In this document: one piece after another, positions 26,806 through 35,737 of the stretch
Layout: each line of letters opens with the position of its first letter
Position numbering within the stretch: the first letter of the stretch is position 1
Assembly: GCA_002049455.2 (NCBI GenBank)
Contig: KV918861.1
Location: 62,001 to 126,000 of the forward strand
From: Porphyra umbilicalis
Lineage: Eukaryota > Rhodophyta > Bangiophyceae > Bangiales > Bangiaceae
Length of the DNA stretch: 64,000 nucleotides
Direction of reading: 5' to 3'
Made by a program: the position numbers and the translations under genes
Notes under the pieces: generated by a model
The model's input: the letters and a program-made list of their open reading frames with translations, nothing else
What the model was told of the DNA's origin: nothing
The model's database searches: none

Positions 26806-28572
26806 CGGACCCAGTCTAAGGATTCCGTTCGGCCCCTTGGACAAGTGCTACATTTTCCGACGATATCTACGGCGCTTCGAGCTCGAGCACACCTACCTCA
26901 TCGACATGGAGTTTCGATGAGCTTCTTTGATGTGGGCACAATGGCCCATCGAGGACAGACCTCAGTGATCGCCGGGCCTCGATGGGCCTCGATGGATTTT
27001 TCTTCCAAAGCAGACGATGGCGCCTGTCCGCGGGGTGCGCCCGCCGCTCCTCGCGTCGACCCGCCCGCGTCGGACGTGGGCGGGCAGCGACGGGCGGGGT
27101 GGGTGGGGAATGTGGCCGACGTCCGCGCGCCGCTGCTCGGCCGGCGGCCGTCGGTCGAGGTGGCGCCTCGGGCGGCGCGCGGCGAACGCCCGTGGCGCGC
27201 GTGCGCGGGTGGTCGTGCCGCCCCCCGCCGCCGCCGCCGCCACTCCCACCGGGGGCGGGGGCCTGCTGCGCCCCCGCTCGGCGCGTAGCCGACAGACGCC
27301 AGCGGCGGCGGTACGCGATGGACGGCGCTCGGTCGCCGGGGGGGCGGTGTGGGGGGGGGGTGGGGGGCCGCGGCCACCGCCGAGGCGCCGCGCCCCACCC
27401 CGTGGCACTGGGTGAGGCGCCGCCCCCGTCCCCATCCCGCCGGGGCGTCGACCGCCTTGCCGCTGGCGCTCTTCGCGCCGCCGGCGGGGCGCCGCCGCCG
27501 GCAAGGGCGGCCTCGCCGCCCGCCGCGGCCGCTGCGGCTGCGACATTGAGCCGCGCGCGCCGCCGCCGCGCCGGCCACGACGCCGCCGCGGCGGCGCGAC
27601 GCGGCGTGCGCGCCTGGGGACGCGCGGCGGCGCGCGGCGCGCGCCGCCCGTCCCCTCGCGTTGTCGTTGGCGTCGAGCCTTTTGTCGTGCTGGCCCCCCG
27701 CGGGCGGGGCCCGACACAGCAGCGGCGGCGCATTTGCCACGGGCCCTACCGGCGGCTGGGGAGGGCGGTCAGCTCCACTGGGCCCAGTGGCCCACCGCCC
27801 CGGGGCGGCGCGCGGCGTGGACGTCGACGCCGACCGGGCGGCGGCGACGGCCTCGCCCGCCCAGCACGCGTCGCAGGCAGCGTCGGGGCGCCCCGACGCG
27901 GCCCGAGCCGTGCGCTCGGCCGCTGCCCTCGCCCACGCTGGGCCGCCGCTCGTCTGTTTGACACGCGGGGCGGACGGGAAGTGGGCTCAGCGGCCCCCAG
28001 CCCTGCGTAACCTGTGGGCGGCCCCGCCCGGGTGGAGCCGTGGCCGTCGGCAGGTGTGGCGAGCGGGAGAAGCAGCGTTCTCACCGCCGCCGCTGCGACC
28101 GACGCAATGCCCATCCGCGCGACGGTGACGCGCCAGGCATCCCCCTCCCTGTCGGTCGTCGCCCGTGGCGGGAAGTCTTCTCAGTGGCTTCCGTCGTGAC
28201 ACGACTGTGTCACGCGCCCTCATGCAATATTTGAAAGACAACAGGTGCTTGGCCAGACCAGGCCGCGGACAGCTGCAGTGCGCGGGCTGACTGCAGGAGC
28301 TAGCGCCCCGACCACACCACTGGCCGCGATAGCCCCGAGCGAGCGACGCCAGCGGAGCATTCTGGTCAGCTGTCGCGGGCGGCAGCGCCGGCGACTCGCT
28401 CGCCGCCCGTGCGCATCGCCACGGCACGTATCCCATGGATGTGACAGCAGACTGCAGCTTGTGCGTGTTGGCGGCAGCCACGTCGCGGGCGGCCCGCCGA
28501 GGTGGTCGTTAGGTCCGAGCGGTCGGACGGGGCTCGTGGACACTGGCTGGGCACGAAATCTAGGACCTCCGA
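26806..28572. other. Intergenic; GC-extreme from about 27.0 to 28.15 kb
   Basis: From about 27000 to 28150 the DNA is so GC-rich that several frames on both strands stay open for 200-340 codons, giving Ala/Arg/Pro/Gly-only translations without any motif. I see no gene. From 28150 the composition relaxes into the promoter region of the NLR-like gene. Confidence 0.4.
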
Positions 28573-28581: not shown

Positions 28582-28785
28582 ACGTTTGTGCTCGCCTTGT
28601 CCCGGACCGCGGTCGCCCGGTACCGGGCGGCCGTGCTGGCTACTGCAGTACTGCTGCAGCTGCGTGGGCCCCTGCCACCCAATGTGGGGCCGTCTCCCTC
28701 TGTTGGCTTTACTCTCTCCCGCCCCCCCCACCTCGCCTTCATCAAGATCACCCTCTCTTATGCCGCTGGCCCCTGCTCGCCCTTT

Positions 28786-31700
28786 ATGGCGTTGACGGTA
28801 GAGGGCTCCTCGTCCATGCCGACGGCCGACGGCGCGTCGGCCTCTGATGATTACTGCCTGCCAGAGGAGGGGGACGCACCCGCATGGGCCTCCCTCATGC
28901 GCCCCTGCATGGGGCACCTGCAACAGATCAAGCCGGCCGGGGTGATGGCGTGCGTGTCGCGCCTCGCCGAGAAGGCGACGGTGACCGCCGTGTCTGTTTG
29001 GTTGCACTGCGGACTACACTATCAGCCACGCGCGCCCGTGGACCCCGTATGCACGCCGCCCGTCGCTGGGAACATGCCGCCCTTGAGTCAGCCCGAAAAG
29101 GGCTGCTGCTTTTTCCCACTGCGGCGCGACGAGTCGGGCGTGGTCTGTTGGGAGGTGCGCGTTTTTCGCGCATCACCGACGGGGGAGCTGCGGGCCGCCG
29201 CTGGACGGTGGGTGATTGAGCTCGTACATCTCCCAAACCGGGGTGACCCGCTGCAGTTTTGCGCGGCGTCCGAGACAGACGCGGGCGAGTGGTATCGGCA
29301 GCTGCGCATGCGCGCGGCCCCAATGGAGCTGATTTGGACGCGGCACGTGGGCGTGGCGCGTGGCGGCGGTGGTGACGGGGATGGGGTCTGCCCGGCGCCC
29401 GGCAAGCCGGCGGCGGCGAGGCGTCTCCCTGTGATGGACGCGCTCACCCGCGGCGCGAGCCACCTGGTGGCTACCGGAGCGTTGGAGGGCGTGGTGGGGG
29501 TGGCGGAGTTTGTGACCGACGTGACGCAGACGGAGGCGTCGAACCTCGCTGCCGCGGCGGGCCCTATGGTCGGCGTGGCGCTTCAGTCGGTGTGTTTTGC
29601 CGCTCGCGTCTGTGCTGCCGCGCATCGCGTTTTCGAGGCGGCCGCGCAGGCATCGGCAGATGTAGACGGCCTGCACGGAGTGTGTCGACGCCTGCTCGTC
29701 GCCCTCAAGGACGTCCGCGATGACGCTGACGTGGGGGCGGCGGAGCTGCACCACCTCCTGAGCCGCCTCCTCGCCGACGTTGAGGCGGCGGCGGGGGAGC
29801 TGCACCACCTGGTGCGATCCCGCCGGCAGCGTGCATGGCTTGCCTGCAGCGCGTCGTGCCGGGGGGTGGAGCTCGATTCCGCCTTGGGCGATCGACTGTC
29901 CCAGAGCCGGCAAAAGGCGGACGGGCTATTGCAGGAGCTGCTGTCGGCGCTGCAGCGCCAGACGGCGGTGGACACGGGCCACATCCTGGCGGCAGTCGGC
30001 CCAGAGGCGCAACTCGCGGCGGCGTCGCGGGCGGGCTGGCGGGGCCTGCCCCGGCTGCCCGACGAGGACAGCATTTTCAACGACTGGGGTGACCCGACGC
30101 TGCCCCCTGCGAGGCTGTACGACGCGGTCATGCAGTCGGGTGCCTCGGCCTCGGCGGTTGTGGGCGCGCACGGAATGGGCGGTGTCGGCAAGACGCTGAC
30201 ATGCCTGCTCGTGGCGCACAAGGTCTCTTTGGAGAACAGCGGCCAGTTGCGCTTCCCAGATGGCGTGCACTGGACGCAGCTGTCCCATCACGTCACGCCA
30301 ACGGACGTGCGCGCGCAGCTGTGCCACCTGACGACGATCCTGTCGGGCACGCCGGCGGAGGCAAACGACACGGAGTTTGCCATCAAGCAGCTCCGTGCTG
30401 TCATCAAGGACAAGGCGTGCCTTATCATCGTCGACGATGTGTGGCACAAGGAGCGGGCGGTGCCGTTCACACGCGCGTTAGCCGACTCTGAGCGCTCGTT
30501 ACTACTCTTGTCGTCACGGCGTGTAGACATCATCGACGCATGTAGCCGCGGTCGCAATGTGCGTTGTGTCAAGGTCGGCGAGCGGCACGGCGTTGACGCA
30601 GAAGGAATGCTCCTCACCCACGCCGAGCGTGGCAGCGTCGTCGCTAAGGACAAAACTGTCGAGCGCGTGCGGCGGGCGGTGGAGTTGTGCGGCGGACACC
30701 CACTCGCATTGGCCGTGTTTGGCTCACTCGTTCGCGATCGTGCACGAGGGAGCCCTCGCGAGGGCGGGTGGGTCGCCGCCCTCGACAAGGTCGGCAGCCA
30801 CCGAGGCGGCCTGCTTTACCAGTCGTCTGGCCTCGACCTTGAGTATGGCTGCCTGTCGGATTGCCTGCACGCCAGTTACGCAGCTCTCGGGGAGGAGGAT
30901 GACGACCGGTCGCAGTGGACGAAGCGCTTCCGCGCGCTCTGCGTCGTCCGCTCCAAGGAGCATCTCCCGTGGCCCGCGCTTGCGGCACTGTGGAACCCGG
31001 GCAGTATGGCGGCCGTGAAGGAGATTGCGAGCGTTTTTCACGCGCGGTCGTTGGTGTCGCTGCGTGGCTCAGGCCCCGACGAGACGCTGTCTCTCAGCCT
31101 CCATGACCTGGTGATTGACTTTCTGGCGGGCGTCTTTGCGACGGACGCAGCGGGAAAAGCGGCGTGCCACCAATCGCTTGTGGAGGGCTACTGCGAACTC
31201 AACGGCATTGCGGCGGCCGGTGAGGGGGTTTCCCTCGGGCGCACGCGCGTGGCGCTGCGGCCGCTGTGGCTGTTACCCCGAGACGGCTACGTGGAGCGCG
31301 CGCTTCCGCACCTACTTGTGGCCGCCGGCGCCGCCGACGAGCTCGACCTGCTGCTGTTGGATATGCGTTTCATCGCCTGGCGGGTGGAGATGGCCGGTGG
31401 CCACTGCGGCTTGTACCGTTCCGACTGCCGCCACGCGGTCGATGTGGCCGTGCTGGGCGATGTTGCCGCGGTGGTGGAAGGCGCCGTGGCCACCAAGGGT
31501 CGCCCACTGAGCGCGTGGTTGCAGCAGGCGGCGTGGGAGGTGGTCACCAGGTTTGGTTCCCTATTGGCGGAGGGCGCCGCGGAGGCCGACCGGCTGGCCC
31601 TCACCTACCTGTGCGAGTCGGCGCGTGCCTACCTCGTCTCCCCGTATATCGAGTTGCTTGGCACGTCCCGCCTGCTTGTGCCCCAGGAGGAGCACGTGCT

Positions 31701-33888
31701 GCCGGCCTGCACTTTTATGCCACTTCTGTGTGCTGGCTTCAAAGAGAGCGGCGTCCTGTTTATTGTCATCGCATACACTAATGTTATGGTGCCCACCATC
31801 CTCAAGGTCTGGGACGAAGACAGTGAAGCGGGTATGACCAAGTTGGAGGACCACGTCGAGCAGGTGGAGTGTTTGGCGGTGGTTGGCGGCAGCGCGTCCG
31901 GCACACCTCAACCGGTCATCGCTGGGGCTGGCTGCGCCCTGCGTGTGTGGGATACCGAGCGCTGGTCCTGTGTAGCAGTGTTGGAGGGCCACACCAAGGC
32001 CGTTTTGTGCGTCATGATGGTGGGCGCCAGTGGACGCGACACTCCCGCGCGTCTTGTGTCTGGTAGTCGGGACGGGACGGTGCGCGTCTGGGACACAGAT
32101 CGCTGGTCGGCGGGGAGCGTCACCGTGCTGGAGGGTCACACTGGCCCGGTTACGTGCTTCGCGGTGGTTGACAATGGCCAGTGTGCGAGTCGAGTGCTCG
32201 TTGCTTCGGGGTCGCATGACAAGACTGTACGGGTGTGGGACCTGAATGAGGGCAAGTGTGTGGCCGTGTTGGAGGGCCACGCGGGCCTGGTGACGTCATT
32301 GGTGGTGGTCGGGGGCGACGAGTGCGGCACGCCCGCACACTTGGTGTCGGGATCCGCGGATGGGACGTTACGGGTGTGGAGTGATGCTGAGAGCTGGTCG
32401 TGCGTAGCAGTGTTGGAGGGCCACACGCAGTCGGTGGACCAGGTAGCCGTGGTGCGCAGCGGGGCATGCGGTGAGCGCATCTGGGTCGTCTCGGCGTGTT
32501 CGTCACGCGTGGCCGAGAGCAACGCGTTGCGGGTCTGGGACGCCAAGGACTGGTCGTGCGTGGCACTTTTGGAGGGCCACACCGGCCCGATCACCTGCTT
32601 GTCGGTGGTGGACGACGACGGGTTTGCTCCCCCGCGGGTGGTATCGGGGTCGATGGACCAGAACGTGCGGGTGTGGGATGTGGCCGCCAAGACGTGCGTT
32701 CTGGTGCTGGAGGGCCACATTTACGGAGTTACCTGCCTGGCGGTGGCCAGTGGCCCTCGGCGAGGCAAGCCGACGCTCGTGATATCGGCGGCGCTCAACG
32801 ACAAGGTGCGGGTGTGGAACCTGGCGGGCCGGTCAACGCAAGTGGCGTCTGCCCGGCACAAGGAGAGGATCTGGTCTCTGACGGCGATGGGTGGCGGCGG
32901 GCGCGATGGTGCTGCGGTGCGGTTGATGTCTGTGTCGCGCGATGTCGTGCAGGTGTGGGACACTGACACCTGGTCGCCTATGGCGGTCTTGTCTATCGGC
33001 GACAATTCGCTCCGAGGCATCGTGGCCGTTGACCGGGAGGGCTGCGGCGTGCCCACTCACGTGGTGATGACGGCATTGGACAAGCTGAAGGTCTGGGATA
33101 TGGCCGGTACGTGCGTGGCGGAGTGGAGCGGGCATACCGCCGAAGTCTGTGACCTGGCGTTGGTGAGCAGCGCCGATGGCCGTGCCGCCGCATGCGTGCT
33201 CTCGGCGTCGGCCGACAAGACGGTCAGGGTGTGGGACGTGGGCAGCGGCGCCTGTCTTGACGTCATCCACTTTCCCGACAGTGTGCAGCAACTTGCAGTG
33301 CTCGACGCTGGCGAAAGCGGCTCACCGGCGCGCTTTGCAGCCGTCATTGGCGCTTTCCCCGAATTCGGGTCGCACAACGTGCAGGTCAAGTGCGTGGATC
33401 AGGCGTCGGCTGGCATCTTGGGCGGCACGTCTAGACTTTCCTTCTCCTGCATTGCGGCCGTGGGTGGCCTCGCACGTGCGTGCGCGCCGTACCTCGTATC
33501 GGCGTCGCTCAATGGGACGGTGAGCGTGTGGGACTGGGAGCGCACCAGTCGCTTGCACACTTTCAATGAGCCGGTGATTTGGGTGCAATGCGCGTCGTGG
33601 TGGGCCTGCCCGCCGGCGGAGACGGGGCGGCCAAGTGCGGTTCTCGGCAGCGGCGAGGCGGCGGCGGTCAACGACGCGGCGGTGGCCGGCGGGTCGGCCG
33701 CCACGTTTGAGGATGCCGCCGTGCTGGTCGACGCGTTGGGTGCCTGCGCGCTCGTCGACTGCCGGCAGCTGACGCTGCGGTGGCTGCCCGCCCCGCCCAA
33801 TGTTTTGTCGGTGTGTTGCCTCCCTGGCGGGCGGATGGCATGGGGAACCCTCACGGGTCGGGTGTATGGCGGTCGGGTCTCGCTGTAA
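28786..33888 (+). CDS. NLR-like STAND protein: PH-like, helical bundle, NB-ARC, WD40 repeats
   Basis: The first ATG of the frame, 28786, gives 1,700 residues. Residues about 105-175 look like a PH domain, with strands ending in DPLQFCAASETDAGEWYRQL, the typical C-terminal Trp helix. Residues about 215-405 are an alpha-helical bundle (VCRRLLVALKDVRDD, then QKADGLLQELLSALQ) that recalls HeLo/RPW8/MLKL-type N-termini. The NB-ARC ATPase has Walker A GMGGVGKT (463-470), kinase-2 LIIVDDVW (546-553), a sensor-like LLLLSSRR, GGHPLAL (from 636) and LHDLVIDF, whose LHD at 772-774 takes the MHD position. From about 990 to 1593 come about 12 WD40 repeats with VLEGHT starts and VRVWD ends, enough for two propellers. 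The family senses a ligand through the repeats and oligomerises after nucleotide exchange, as in APAF-1 and plant or fungal NLRs. All ATPase motifs are intact and there is no frame break. The ligand and output are unknown. Confidence 0.9.
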   Translation: MALTVEGSSSMPTADGASASDDYCLPEEGDAPAWASLMRPCMGHLQQIKPAGVMACVSRLAEKATVTAVSVWLHCGLHYQPRAPVDPVCTPPVAGNMPPLSQPEKGCCFFPLRRDESGVVCWEVRVFRASPTGELRAAAGRWVIELVHLPNRGDPLQFCAASETDAGEWYRQLRMRAAPMELIWTRHVGVARGGGGDGDGVCPAPGKPAAARRLPVMDALTRGASHLVATGALEGVVGVAEFVTDVTQTEASNLAAAAGPMVGVALQSVCFAARVCAAAHRVFEAAAQASADVDGLHGVCRRLLVALKDVRDDADVGAAELHHLLSRLLADVEAAAGELHHLVRSRRQRAWLACSASCRGVELDSALGDRLSQSRQKADGLLQELLSALQRQTAVDTGHILAAVGPEAQLAAASRAGWRGLPRLPDEDSIFNDWGDPTLPPARLYDAVMQSGASASAVVGAHGMGGVGKTLTCLLVAHKVSLENSGQLRFPDGVHWTQLSHHVTPTDVRAQLCHLTTILSGTPAEANDTEFAIKQLRAVIKDKACLIIVDDVWHKERAVPFTRALADSERSLLLLSSRRVDIIDACSRGRNVRCVKVGERHGVDAEGMLLTHAERGSVVAKDKTVERVRRAVELCGGHPLALAVFGSLVRDRARGSPREGGWVAALDKVGSHRGGLLYQSSGLDLEYGCLSDCLHASYAALGEEDDDRSQWTKRFRALCVVRSKEHLPWPALAALWNPGSMAAVKEIASVFHARSLVSLRGSGPDETLSLSLHDLVIDFLAGVFATDAAGKAACHQSLVEGYCELNGIAAAGEGVSLGRTRVALRPLWLLPRDGYVERALPHLLVAAGAADELDLLLLDMRFIAWRVEMAGGHCGLYRSDCRHAVDVAVLGDVAAVVEGAVATKGRPLSAWLQQAAWEVVTRFGSLLAEGAAEADRLALTYLCESARAYLVSPYIELLGTSRLLVPQEEHVLPACTFMPLLCAGFKESGVLFIVIAYTNVMVPTILKVWDEDSEAGMTKLEDHVEQVECLAVVGGSASGTPQPVIAGAGCALRVWDTERWSCVAVLEGHTKAVLCVMMVGASGRDTPARLVSGSRDGTVRVWDTDRWSAGSVTVLEGHTGPVTCFAVVDNGQCASRVLVASGSHDKTVRVWDLNEGKCVAVLEGHAGLVTSLVVVGGDECGTPAHLVSGSADGTLRVWSDAESWSCVAVLEGHTQSVDQVAVVRSGACGERIWVVSACSSRVAESNALRVWDAKDWSCVALLEGHTGPITCLSVVDDDGFAPPRVVSGSMDQNVRVWDVAAKTCVLVLEGHIYGVTCLAVASGPRRGKPTLVISAALNDKVRVWNLAGRSTQVASARHKERIWSLTAMGGGGRDGAAVRLMSVSRDVVQVWDTDTWSPMAVLSIGDNSLRGIVAVDREGCGVPTHVVMTALDKLKVWDMAGTCVAEWSGHTAEVCDLALVSSADGRAAACVLSASADKTVRVWDVGSGACLDVIHFPDSVQQLAVLDAGESGSPARFAAVIGAFPEFGSHNVQVKCVDQASAGILGGTSRLSFSCIAAVGGLARACAPYLVSASLNGTVSVWDWERTSRLHTFNEPVIWVQCASWWACPPAETGRPSAVLGSGEAAAVNDAAVAGGSAATFEDAAVLVDALGACALVDCRQLTLRWLPAPPNVLSVCCLPGGRMAWGTLTGRVYGGRVSL

Positions 33889-35737
33889 CATCCCCTGCGG
33901 CTCTGTGACCAAGCAGGCGGGGAGAAACCGGGTGCAGTTCACTGCGGCGCCGCGGGCGCGTCACGGGCGGCGGGTGCCCCCGGGCGCACGCCGGCGCGCG
34001 CCCCCGTGGCCGCTCGGGGCGCCACCCACACACGACGCCGGCTGCAGGGGCGGCCGCAGCCTCGCGGGGCGGCGCTGCCGTCGCCCACCAGCGTGTGGTC
34101 GCGCCTGGGCGGAGCGGGGCCCCTGCCCCGGCGGTCGGGCGCCGCGTCCCCCCGCGTCGCTGACCGCCCGCGGGGGGCACCCCCCGCCCGCCGCCACTGG
34201 GACCCCACCCCGCCGCACACGGGGCCGCCGTCGGCCAACCGACGGCGCGACCGGCGGGCGGTGGCCGCAGAGACCCCCGCCGCGGCGGGCGGCGGCGACA
34301 CCCCCGCCGCCGCGCGGGGGCCCAGCGCACCGCCGCGGCGGTGCGCCGCGACGCGCCGCGCGGGCACCCACCCGCGGCGGGGGCGCGCCGCCGCGCACGG
34401 CGCGGCGGCGGCGCGCACGGCCGCCGGCGGCGCGCGTCGCCGCCGCGTCGCGCCGCAGTCGCGCCGCCGCCGCCGCCCCGACGCGCGGCGCCGCAGCGCC
34501 GCCCGCGGCGCCCCCCCCCCCCGCCGGCGGCGGCGGCGGCGGCGGCAAGCGGCGCGCCGGCGCGCCGGGGCGGCCGCGACACGACCCCCGCGTGCGCGGC
34601 CGGTGCGCGCCCGCCGACGGGGCGCCGCGCGCGGTCGGGCGGCGGCGCCGCGCGGTGGCCCGCACGCCGCCGCGGGCGGGGGCGTGCCGCCACGGGGGCG
34701 ACGGTGGCCCGCGCGCCGCCGCGGGCGGGGGCGTGCCGCCACGGGCTGTGCCGGTGCAGGCGGCGGGGGGGGGTGGGCCCGCCGCCGGCGCGGGCGGGGG
34801 GGGGGGGGGCGCCGCGGTGCGCCGCGTCGGCGGCGCGCGCCGCGCGCGGCGTGGGCGGCCGGGCGGCTGGCAAAGCGCCGCCGTCGTGGGGATGGGGGGG
34901 GGGGACGCGGGTGGCGCGGTGGGGGACGCTGTCGGACGGCGGTGTGGGGGAGGGGTGGATCGAGGACACGTCGGGCACGCCCGTGCGCATCGCAACGGGG
35001 GTGGGAAGGTAAGGAACAAGCAACAACAACAAAAAAAAAAAAAAAAGGGACGAGGCGACGATTCTATGTCGTGCCGCCGCGCGCGACCGCGCGAGCCCCC
35101 GCACGGCCCGTCCGACGCGACCGCCGCGCCGCCGCCGCCGCGTGCCGCGCCGCGCAGCGCGGTCGGCGTCACCGCCGCGGCGGCCGCCGCGGTGCGCACC
35201 GACGCGGCACGCTGCGGCGGCGCGCAACGCCGCCGGCGGGCCACGGCGGCCGCGTCGCTGGCGACCCGTCGACGCGCGCGGCGGGGGCGCCCGCCGACGA
35301 CCGCGCCCTCCCCACGCCCTACGTACCCCTACCGGTGGCCACGCCACGCCACCACTGCCCGCCGCCACCGACGCGCGCCGCCGGGGGCGCCCGCCGTACC
35401 AGCCCCGGGCGTGGCCGCCACAAAAAAAACACCCCCAGCCGCAACGGGCGTCGCCCCGGCCGCCGCCGTCGTCGTCGCCTGCCGCCGACCAAGCGCAGCC
35501 ACCACGGCGCGCCGCGCCCGCACTAGCAGTGCAATGGACGGCCATGCCACAGCCCCGTACGGGTCCGCCGCCGCCCACCGAGCCGCACGTAGGCCACGCC
35601 CGCAAAGGCCCGACGCACATCCAGCCACCACCGACGGAGCGGGGCGGGCGTGCCCCGCCATCGCCCCTATCCCACCGCTCCACCCATCCCCGGTCAGTGC
35701 GTCCATGCCGCCCGACCACCCCACCACCACCCCCCCC
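33889..35737. other. GC-extreme intergenic with a 16-A tract
   Basis: It has the most GC-skewed composition in the window, with ORFs of 400-650 codons open on both strands and in several frames. All translate to Ala/Arg/Pro/Gly runs with no domain, so none is called. An isolated A tract (35031-35046, preceded by CAACAACAAC) interrupts it. The segment lies between the convergent 3' ends of the NLR-like gene and the CNNM-type gene. Confidence 0.45.

Follow-up and report, generated by a model that had tools for sequence, protein, structure and literature searches.

An NB-ARC–WD40 gene family of Porphyra umbilicalis with a conserved front end and a hypervariable propeller face

Gene structure and copies in the genome

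The window (the whole stretch of DNA that was analysed, 64,000 nucleotides) carries on its forward strand a single open frame that runs without an internal stop from an ATG at 28786 to a TAA at 33888 and encodes 1,700 amino acids, as the sequence-only reading of this DNA had claimed. The frame comprises an N-terminal module followed by an NB-ARC domain, a putative winged helix and WD40 repeats, and all 8 copies with aligned upstream DNA have the start codon at the same position. The features are listed below.

28697..28785, + strand: upstream stretch conserved among near copies, with similarity that decays further out (copy alignment)
28786..33888, + strand: intact, uninterrupted gene of 1,700 amino acids
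28888..29355, + strand: beta-rich PH-like domain, residues 35–190, with a closing helix that bears an invariant Trp
29356..29427, + strand: Gly-rich variable linker, residues 191–214
29428..30060, + strand: helical bundle, residues 215–425, the most constrained region
30145..30741, + strand: NB-ARC domain, residues 454–652 (Pfam E 1.5e-16)
30172..30195, + strand: Walker A, GMGGVGKT, residues 463–470
30421..30444, + strand: Walker B, LIIVDDVW, residues 546–553
30691..30711, + strand: GGHPLAL at the GLPLA position, residues 636–642
30931..31125, + strand: APAF-1-like winged helix, sub-threshold (E 0.1 in the window copy)
31099..31107, + strand: LHD at the MHD position, residues 772–774
31807..33885, + strand: WD40 region with 13 blade anchors, whose top-face contacts are hypervariable between copies
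33889..34079, + strand: downstream stretch conserved among many near copies (copy alignment)

From the alignment of copies, the conserved upstream stretch is likely to be 5′ UTR or promoter-proximal sequence, and the downstream stretch is likely to be 3′ UTR. Elsewhere in the genome, ten near copies align with the 5.1-kb gene over its whole extent at 81–92% DNA identity, and the overall dN/dS of the frame is 0.47 among 7 intact copies, indicative of purifying selection; the gene is thus not a chance reading frame. Ten further frames of the window had no Pfam match at E ≤ 0.001, bar one that fell under its cut-off, and scans of the window with Rfam at gathering thresholds and for tRNAs were both empty. 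Between 34000 and 51000 the window contains stretches of 75–83% G+C with many long overlapping frames on both strands, which are probably a compositional effect.

All four NB-ARC motifs named in the earlier reading were located, and these motifs (Walker A, Walker B, GLPLA and MHD-like), together with the C-terminal WD40 repeats, are those expected of a STAND/NLR protein. The WD40 region matched Pfam at E 2.3e-48, and its blade anchors, between residues 1008 and 1583, comprise twelve of the VW(D/N/S) type and one KCVD; the repeats, put at about 12 in the earlier reading, are present with a count of 13 anchors. The winged helix was matched with E values of 0.011 and 0.019 in two near copies and 7.7e-5 in the relative L018, all of which, like the match in the window copy, lie below the curated cut-off. 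NB-ARC, a weak APAF-1-like winged helix and WD40 repeats support the proposed APAF-1 plan. No CARD was matched by its Pfam profile in window residues 1–457 at E ≤ 10, and the APAF1_C profile was not found in the region scanned.

We searched the genome (84 Mb, 665 contigs) and found NB-ARC at 41 places, a lower bound, since the 41 leave out some N-termini of family B, C429 and C69:273275 among them. Hand comparison of positions with N-terminal searches divided these loci into 18 of a WD40 family (A), 20 of a TPR-type family (B) and 3 unassigned; among five C-terminal parts scanned, the three from family A have WD40 and the two from family B have TPR. The N-terminal module of the window gene was matched at all 18 family-A loci, including 3 with stops inside the match. 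This 18-of-18 association indicates that the module is part of the gene, and the sequences thus place it in one protein with NB-ARC and WD40, in agreement with the earlier assignment. N-terminal sequence also occurs without an NB-ARC match at four more places (C87, C413, C611 and C78:261104). One of these, L039:84-1505 (G000:C87), consists of the module alone, 81% identical to residues 1–391, in a frame that ends one residue past the matched part, within the bundle or close to its end; it is either a stand-alone module or a truncated copy. Another, L040:3223-5241 (G000:C78), lies ~15 kb from the family-A gene L010 and is 88% identical to it, with similarity lost inside the bundle.

Near copies of the window gene numbered ten among 20 fetched loci (L012, L013, L017 and L019–L025), of which four (L012, L013, L019 and L023) are broken and six are intact, giving 11 near copies and 7 intact ones when the window gene is included. 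Along its full length, the window protein is 73.5–89.4% identical to the other six intact copies. The 11 near copies lie on 11 different contigs and have short flanks in common. The nearest copy, L022 (89% protein identity), has flanks that match window positions 27020–28511 (79% DNA identity) and 28697–35148 (92%); it is thus a segmental copy of greater length, located on a different contig, and the match extends to the edge of the fetched locus. Retrogene spread, raised by the short flanks in common, was dropped as an explanation, since similarity decays gradually and the L022 flanks are much longer. A short dispersed motif, GCGCAACGAACAGCCTCGGC or a variant of it, follows the stop in L012, L017, L024 and other copies, close to the 3′ end. 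In the same genome, phycobilisome linker domains were found at 12 places, four on the plastid-like contig C665 and eight elsewhere. Together with the NB-ARC+WD40 and NB-ARC+TPR families, which lie in large frames free of interruptions, these domains mark the genome as that of a red alga, probably a bangiophyte.

The N-terminal module

The segment on which a PH-like fold had been proposed, QFCAASETDAGEWYRQL, is present in the window protein, and all 14 aligned copies keep its Trp (W169). PH was the sole Pfam family matched by more than one copy of the N-terminal region, but these matches were weak: PH was found in 5 of 14 copies with a best E of 0.13 (13 bits against a cut-off of 25.1 for L024), and the window copy was unmatched. 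Thus, the Pfam searches proposed in the earlier reading gave significant NB-ARC and WD40 matches and a sub-threshold PH match in copies only. Profile searches of the PDB were not significant for the whole N-terminus (best E 0.56), family B (2.2) or the beta domain (0.14), the closest solved-structure sequence match of the last being a Pellino protein. AlphaFold, run on the single window sequence, gave a low-confidence model for residues 25–197 (mean pLDDT 35.9), and the PH fold is to this extent unconfirmed.

For residues 197–437 the corresponding AlphaFold model of the single window sequence was all-helical, again with low confidence (mean pLDDT 54). This model agrees with the predicted helical bundle, yet its likeness to death folds found no confirmation: a Foldseek search with the low-confidence model returned no match at E ≤ 0.001, and VIA-align returned unrelated generic helical bundles, with no HeLo, RPW8 or MLKL chain among the matches listed, an absence that carries no weight against these folds. 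A sequence relationship to HeLo, RPW8 or MLKL could not be shown: Pfam gave no match to any of them in the N-terminal region of the window protein or its copies, the MLKL_N profile detected nothing genome-wide at E ≤ 1, and a profile comparison with human MLKL was not significant (7 of 100 shuffles scored as high). The most hydrophobic 19 residues of the bundle, which begin at residue 261 (MVGVALQSVCFAARVCAAA), reach a moderate hydrophobicity of 1.68, and the peak of the whole window protein, at residue 990, lies outside the bundle. The most hydrophobic 19-residue stretch of the bundle keeps this place in all 14 family-A copies compared and lies at the corresponding position in 10 of the 11 from family B. 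Overall, these data point weakly to a module composed of a PH-like domain plus a helical bundle, and the fold names themselves (PH, death-fold-like bundle) are interpretation rather than observation.

Family B (L026, L028 and L029–L038) combines NB-ARC, and TPR in the two scanned C-termini, with a segment of its own that looks beta-rich and a bundle of helices, the first of them hydrophobic and of the VPVVGP type. Comparison of the beta domains of families A and B gave no signal (25 of 100 shuffles scored as high). The bundles of the two families aligned with a score above all 100 column shuffles, which 2 of 100 block shuffles reached, and with an hhalign probability of just 2.9%; on these alignments the two front ends may share an ancestor, which is a lead, not a result. 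Relatives of the N-terminal module were also sought in collections of prokaryote genomes and viral contigs by pattern and then tblastn, and none was confirmed among 523 and 206 pattern matches, respectively.

Constraint and variation along the protein

We compared dN/dS, calculated only by the Nei–Gojobori counting method, between parts of the 7 intact copies. Mean values were 0.26 for the bundle, 0.33 for NB-ARC, 0.35 for the ARC2/winged-helix region, 0.36 for the PH-like domain, 0.47 for residues 861–1030, 0.61 for WD40 and 0.96 for the short linker. The bundle is therefore the best-kept part of the protein, and the WD40 region is the least kept among the folded parts. Across 11 copies, 41 sites have at least 6 residue types, with none in residues 1–900, 8 in residues 901–1007 and 33 in WD40; coverage of the front part is thinner, rising from 7 copies at the start to 10 by residue 900, since only the open pieces of broken copies were included.

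The contacts on the top face of WD40 propellers are the positions termed R1-2, R1 and D-1 (PMC3419727). In the window family these contacts (38 sites, 11 copies) have a dN/dS of 1.62, compared to 0.54 for the other 595 WD40 sites, with a bootstrap range of pN/pS for the contacts of 1.09–1.88, and none of 20,000 random site sets held as many residue types. The contact rule was applied after the variability table had been seen, so that this first test was not blind, and contact sites in blades that have no canonical His or Asp were placed by eye. Five other choices of sites or copies (for example, canonical repeats only, intact copies only, or near twins dropped) gave contact dN/dS values of 1.56 to 2.19. 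Of the 33 hypervariable WD40 sites, 9 are exact contacts, 10 are adjacent loop positions and 14 lie elsewhere. By the counting method only, the top-face contact positions thus appear to be under positive selection, and the diversification of WD40 repeats that the sequence-only reading proposed to look for was found among these 11 copies of one genome.

The contact rule was already fixed when we applied it to tandem WD40 arrays in three divergent family members, L009, L010 and L011, which therefore provide a separate test, and in these arrays the rule held. Their repeat units are 141, 162 and 162 bp, respectively, with 12, 10 and 11 full-period units and mean amino-acid identities of 0.81, 0.91 and 0.81. 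The pN/pS ratios were 1.67, 5.34 and 1.76 for contacts and 0.38, 0.34 and 0.57 for the remaining positions; R1 is invariant in the L010 array, and the ratio of 5.34 is unsteady because contact pS is just 0.076. All three arrays vary at the second residue after the His, the two residues after the His as a class gave pN/pS ratios of 0.66, 1.62 and 1.25, and the residue after the tetrad Asp is variable in L009 and L010. The window gene and L014 have no tandem array of near-identical WD40 units. The family has a common domain order and a constraint pattern in which front end and switch are conserved and the propeller face diversifies.

Proposed function and comparison with known systems

Taken together, the sequences suggest that the gene probably encodes an intracellular STAND/NLR-type recognition receptor with diversifying WD40 repeats and a conserved, possibly membrane-directed output module. 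Its description as a diversifying recognition receptor is likely to hold; that the output acts on membranes or in cell death is an argument from analogy, which we advance tentatively. The WD40 propellers would be the sensor, their top faces, diversified by selection, binding a fast-changing partner that might be a pathogen molecule, a guarded host protein or a non-self marker. The steps that would follow are drawn from APAF-1 and from NLRs in general: partner binding would free the NB-ARC/winged-helix switch for nucleotide exchange and oligomerisation, as in APAF-1, and the conserved N-terminal modules (beta-rich PH-like domain plus helical bundle), then clustered, would provide the output, for which a membrane is the most plausible site. 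The predicted activities are thus binding of a ligand, oligomerisation, action on membranes and cell death.

The module could instead be an adaptor or scaffold of a diversifying NLR that signals by protein contacts and not as a membrane-acting executor, which we consider rather unlikely. Pfam gives no known membrane or death fold, the MLKL comparison was not significant, a Pellino protein is the top PDB sequence match for the beta domain, and the bundle lies behind ~200 residues and so lacks the free N-terminal helix of MLKL, HeLo and RPW8 (PMC9815663). Against this, the hydrophobic 19 residues keep their place in the bundles of both families, albeit with moderate hydrophobicity, and the alignment with MLKL, which is not significant, has what we read as a consistent register between families A and B. 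A different objection concerns what is recognised, because receptors of this kind might sense non-self of the same or a related species at cell fusion or contact, like fungal het-e/hnwd. Near-identical WD40 units that vary at contacts in three relatives match Podospora hnwd in this respect (PMC2873952); in Pyropia yezoensis, however, 3 of 7 listed NB-ARC+WD40 genes are up after infection by the oomycete Pythium (PMC6928737), and for this reason we favour defence and hold allorecognition to be unlikely, noting that allele frequencies cannot come from the single genome analysed.

Two further accounts were considered. WD40 scaffolds are common, and many duplicated families include broken members, as this one does with 4 of the 10 other near copies, so the genes might be a housekeeping scaffold family subject to ordinary paralogue drift. 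A contact dN/dS above 1 beside a bundle at 0.26 is not expected from drift, however, and variation in the three arrays is concentrated at the contacts, which makes this account very improbable. We regard as more improbable still the idea that the genes are cargo spread with a transposable element, which would explain much of the copy number. The dispersal of the near copies over as many contigs, their short common flanks and the repeat motif past the stop of some copies would fit such spread, but the motif has 121 genome-wide matches at ≤1 mismatch (reversed control, 0), many of them away from NB-ARC loci, and the similarity of the flanks decays without a common edge.

Recognition by a diversifying propeller, our preferred reading, bears on red algae because Porphyra and Pyropia reportedly lack the canonical NBS-LRR receptors of plants (PMC8307928, PMC6928737). 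Genes with a conserved front end and a diversifying propeller face are concrete candidates for specific intracellular recognition in these algae, and the contact sites say which residues to examine in population data. A broader and conjectural extension is that red algae may have their own expanding intracellular repertoire, with a lineage-specific PH-like-plus-bundle executor on an APAF-1-like switch and propellers diversified both by contact-site substitution between scattered genes and by homogenisation of arrays in the hnwd manner, a development separate from those in fungi and land plants; with a comparable front end joined to TPR in the second family, the two might constitute a membrane-directed NLR system in a further multicellular lineage.

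The NB-ARC–WD40 plan itself is known. Seven NB-ARC+WD40 genes are listed in Pyropia and NBS+TPR and NBS+WD40 are named in Porphyra (PMC6928737), two NB-ARC families are cited for Porphyra (PMC8307928), and rhodophyte proteins that combine NB-ARC with winged-helix-like and APAF1_C/WD40 domains have been reported (PMC8891106). The C-terminal plans of families A and B are the two known from Porphyra umbilicalis and Pyropia yezoensis, NB-ARC+WD40 and NB-ARC+TPR, and the consulted parts of the two accounts (PMC6928737, PMC8307928) contain no N-terminal module, near-identical arrays or contact-site diversification. The earlier impression that the arrangement was undescribed must therefore be narrowed: we found no description in the open-access literature searched of the N-terminal module, of contact-site diversification or of array homogenisation in red algae, and what appears to be new is the hypervariable propeller face with the conserved front end.

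Beyond red algae, the protein resembles APAF-1 and Dark in its NB-ARC, weak APAF-1-like winged helix and WD40 propellers, and differs from them in having no CARD by Pfam, many copies, a diversifying propeller face and no APAF1_C in the region scanned. NLRs of the HeLo and RPW8 types likewise carry a helical bundle ahead of a nucleotide switch, and the register match to MLKL is weak and non-significant; compared to MLKL, HeLo and RPW8, the bundle has no significant sequence similarity and is internal, behind a beta-rich domain. In brown-algal candidate receptors, repeat exons are reportedly shuffled, whereas each gene described here is one unbroken frame that either differs at WD40 contact sites or carries a near-identical array. 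Those brown-algal receptors, of the ROCO-LRR and NB-ARC–TPR types, are likewise algal multigene families with repeat sensors (PMC8307928).

The family also resembles hnwd, het-d and het-e of Podospora anserina, which couple a STAND switch to near-identical WD40 units with few diversified top-face codons (PMC2873952, PMC4986451). In hnwd units the codon pairs 7,9 and 25,27, at the propeller top, are positively selected (PMC2873952), and each pair is spaced by two, as are R1-2 and R1, and D-1 and the residue that follows the Asp, in the present family. The switch is NB-ARC here and NACHT in HET-E (PMC8891106), the window front end, unlike these fungal proteins, has no Pfam match to HET, and the WD40 repeats of the window gene are degenerate compared to the homogenised fungal ones. 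With this family one can test if the same way of diversifying WD40 sensors arose separately in fungi and in red algae.
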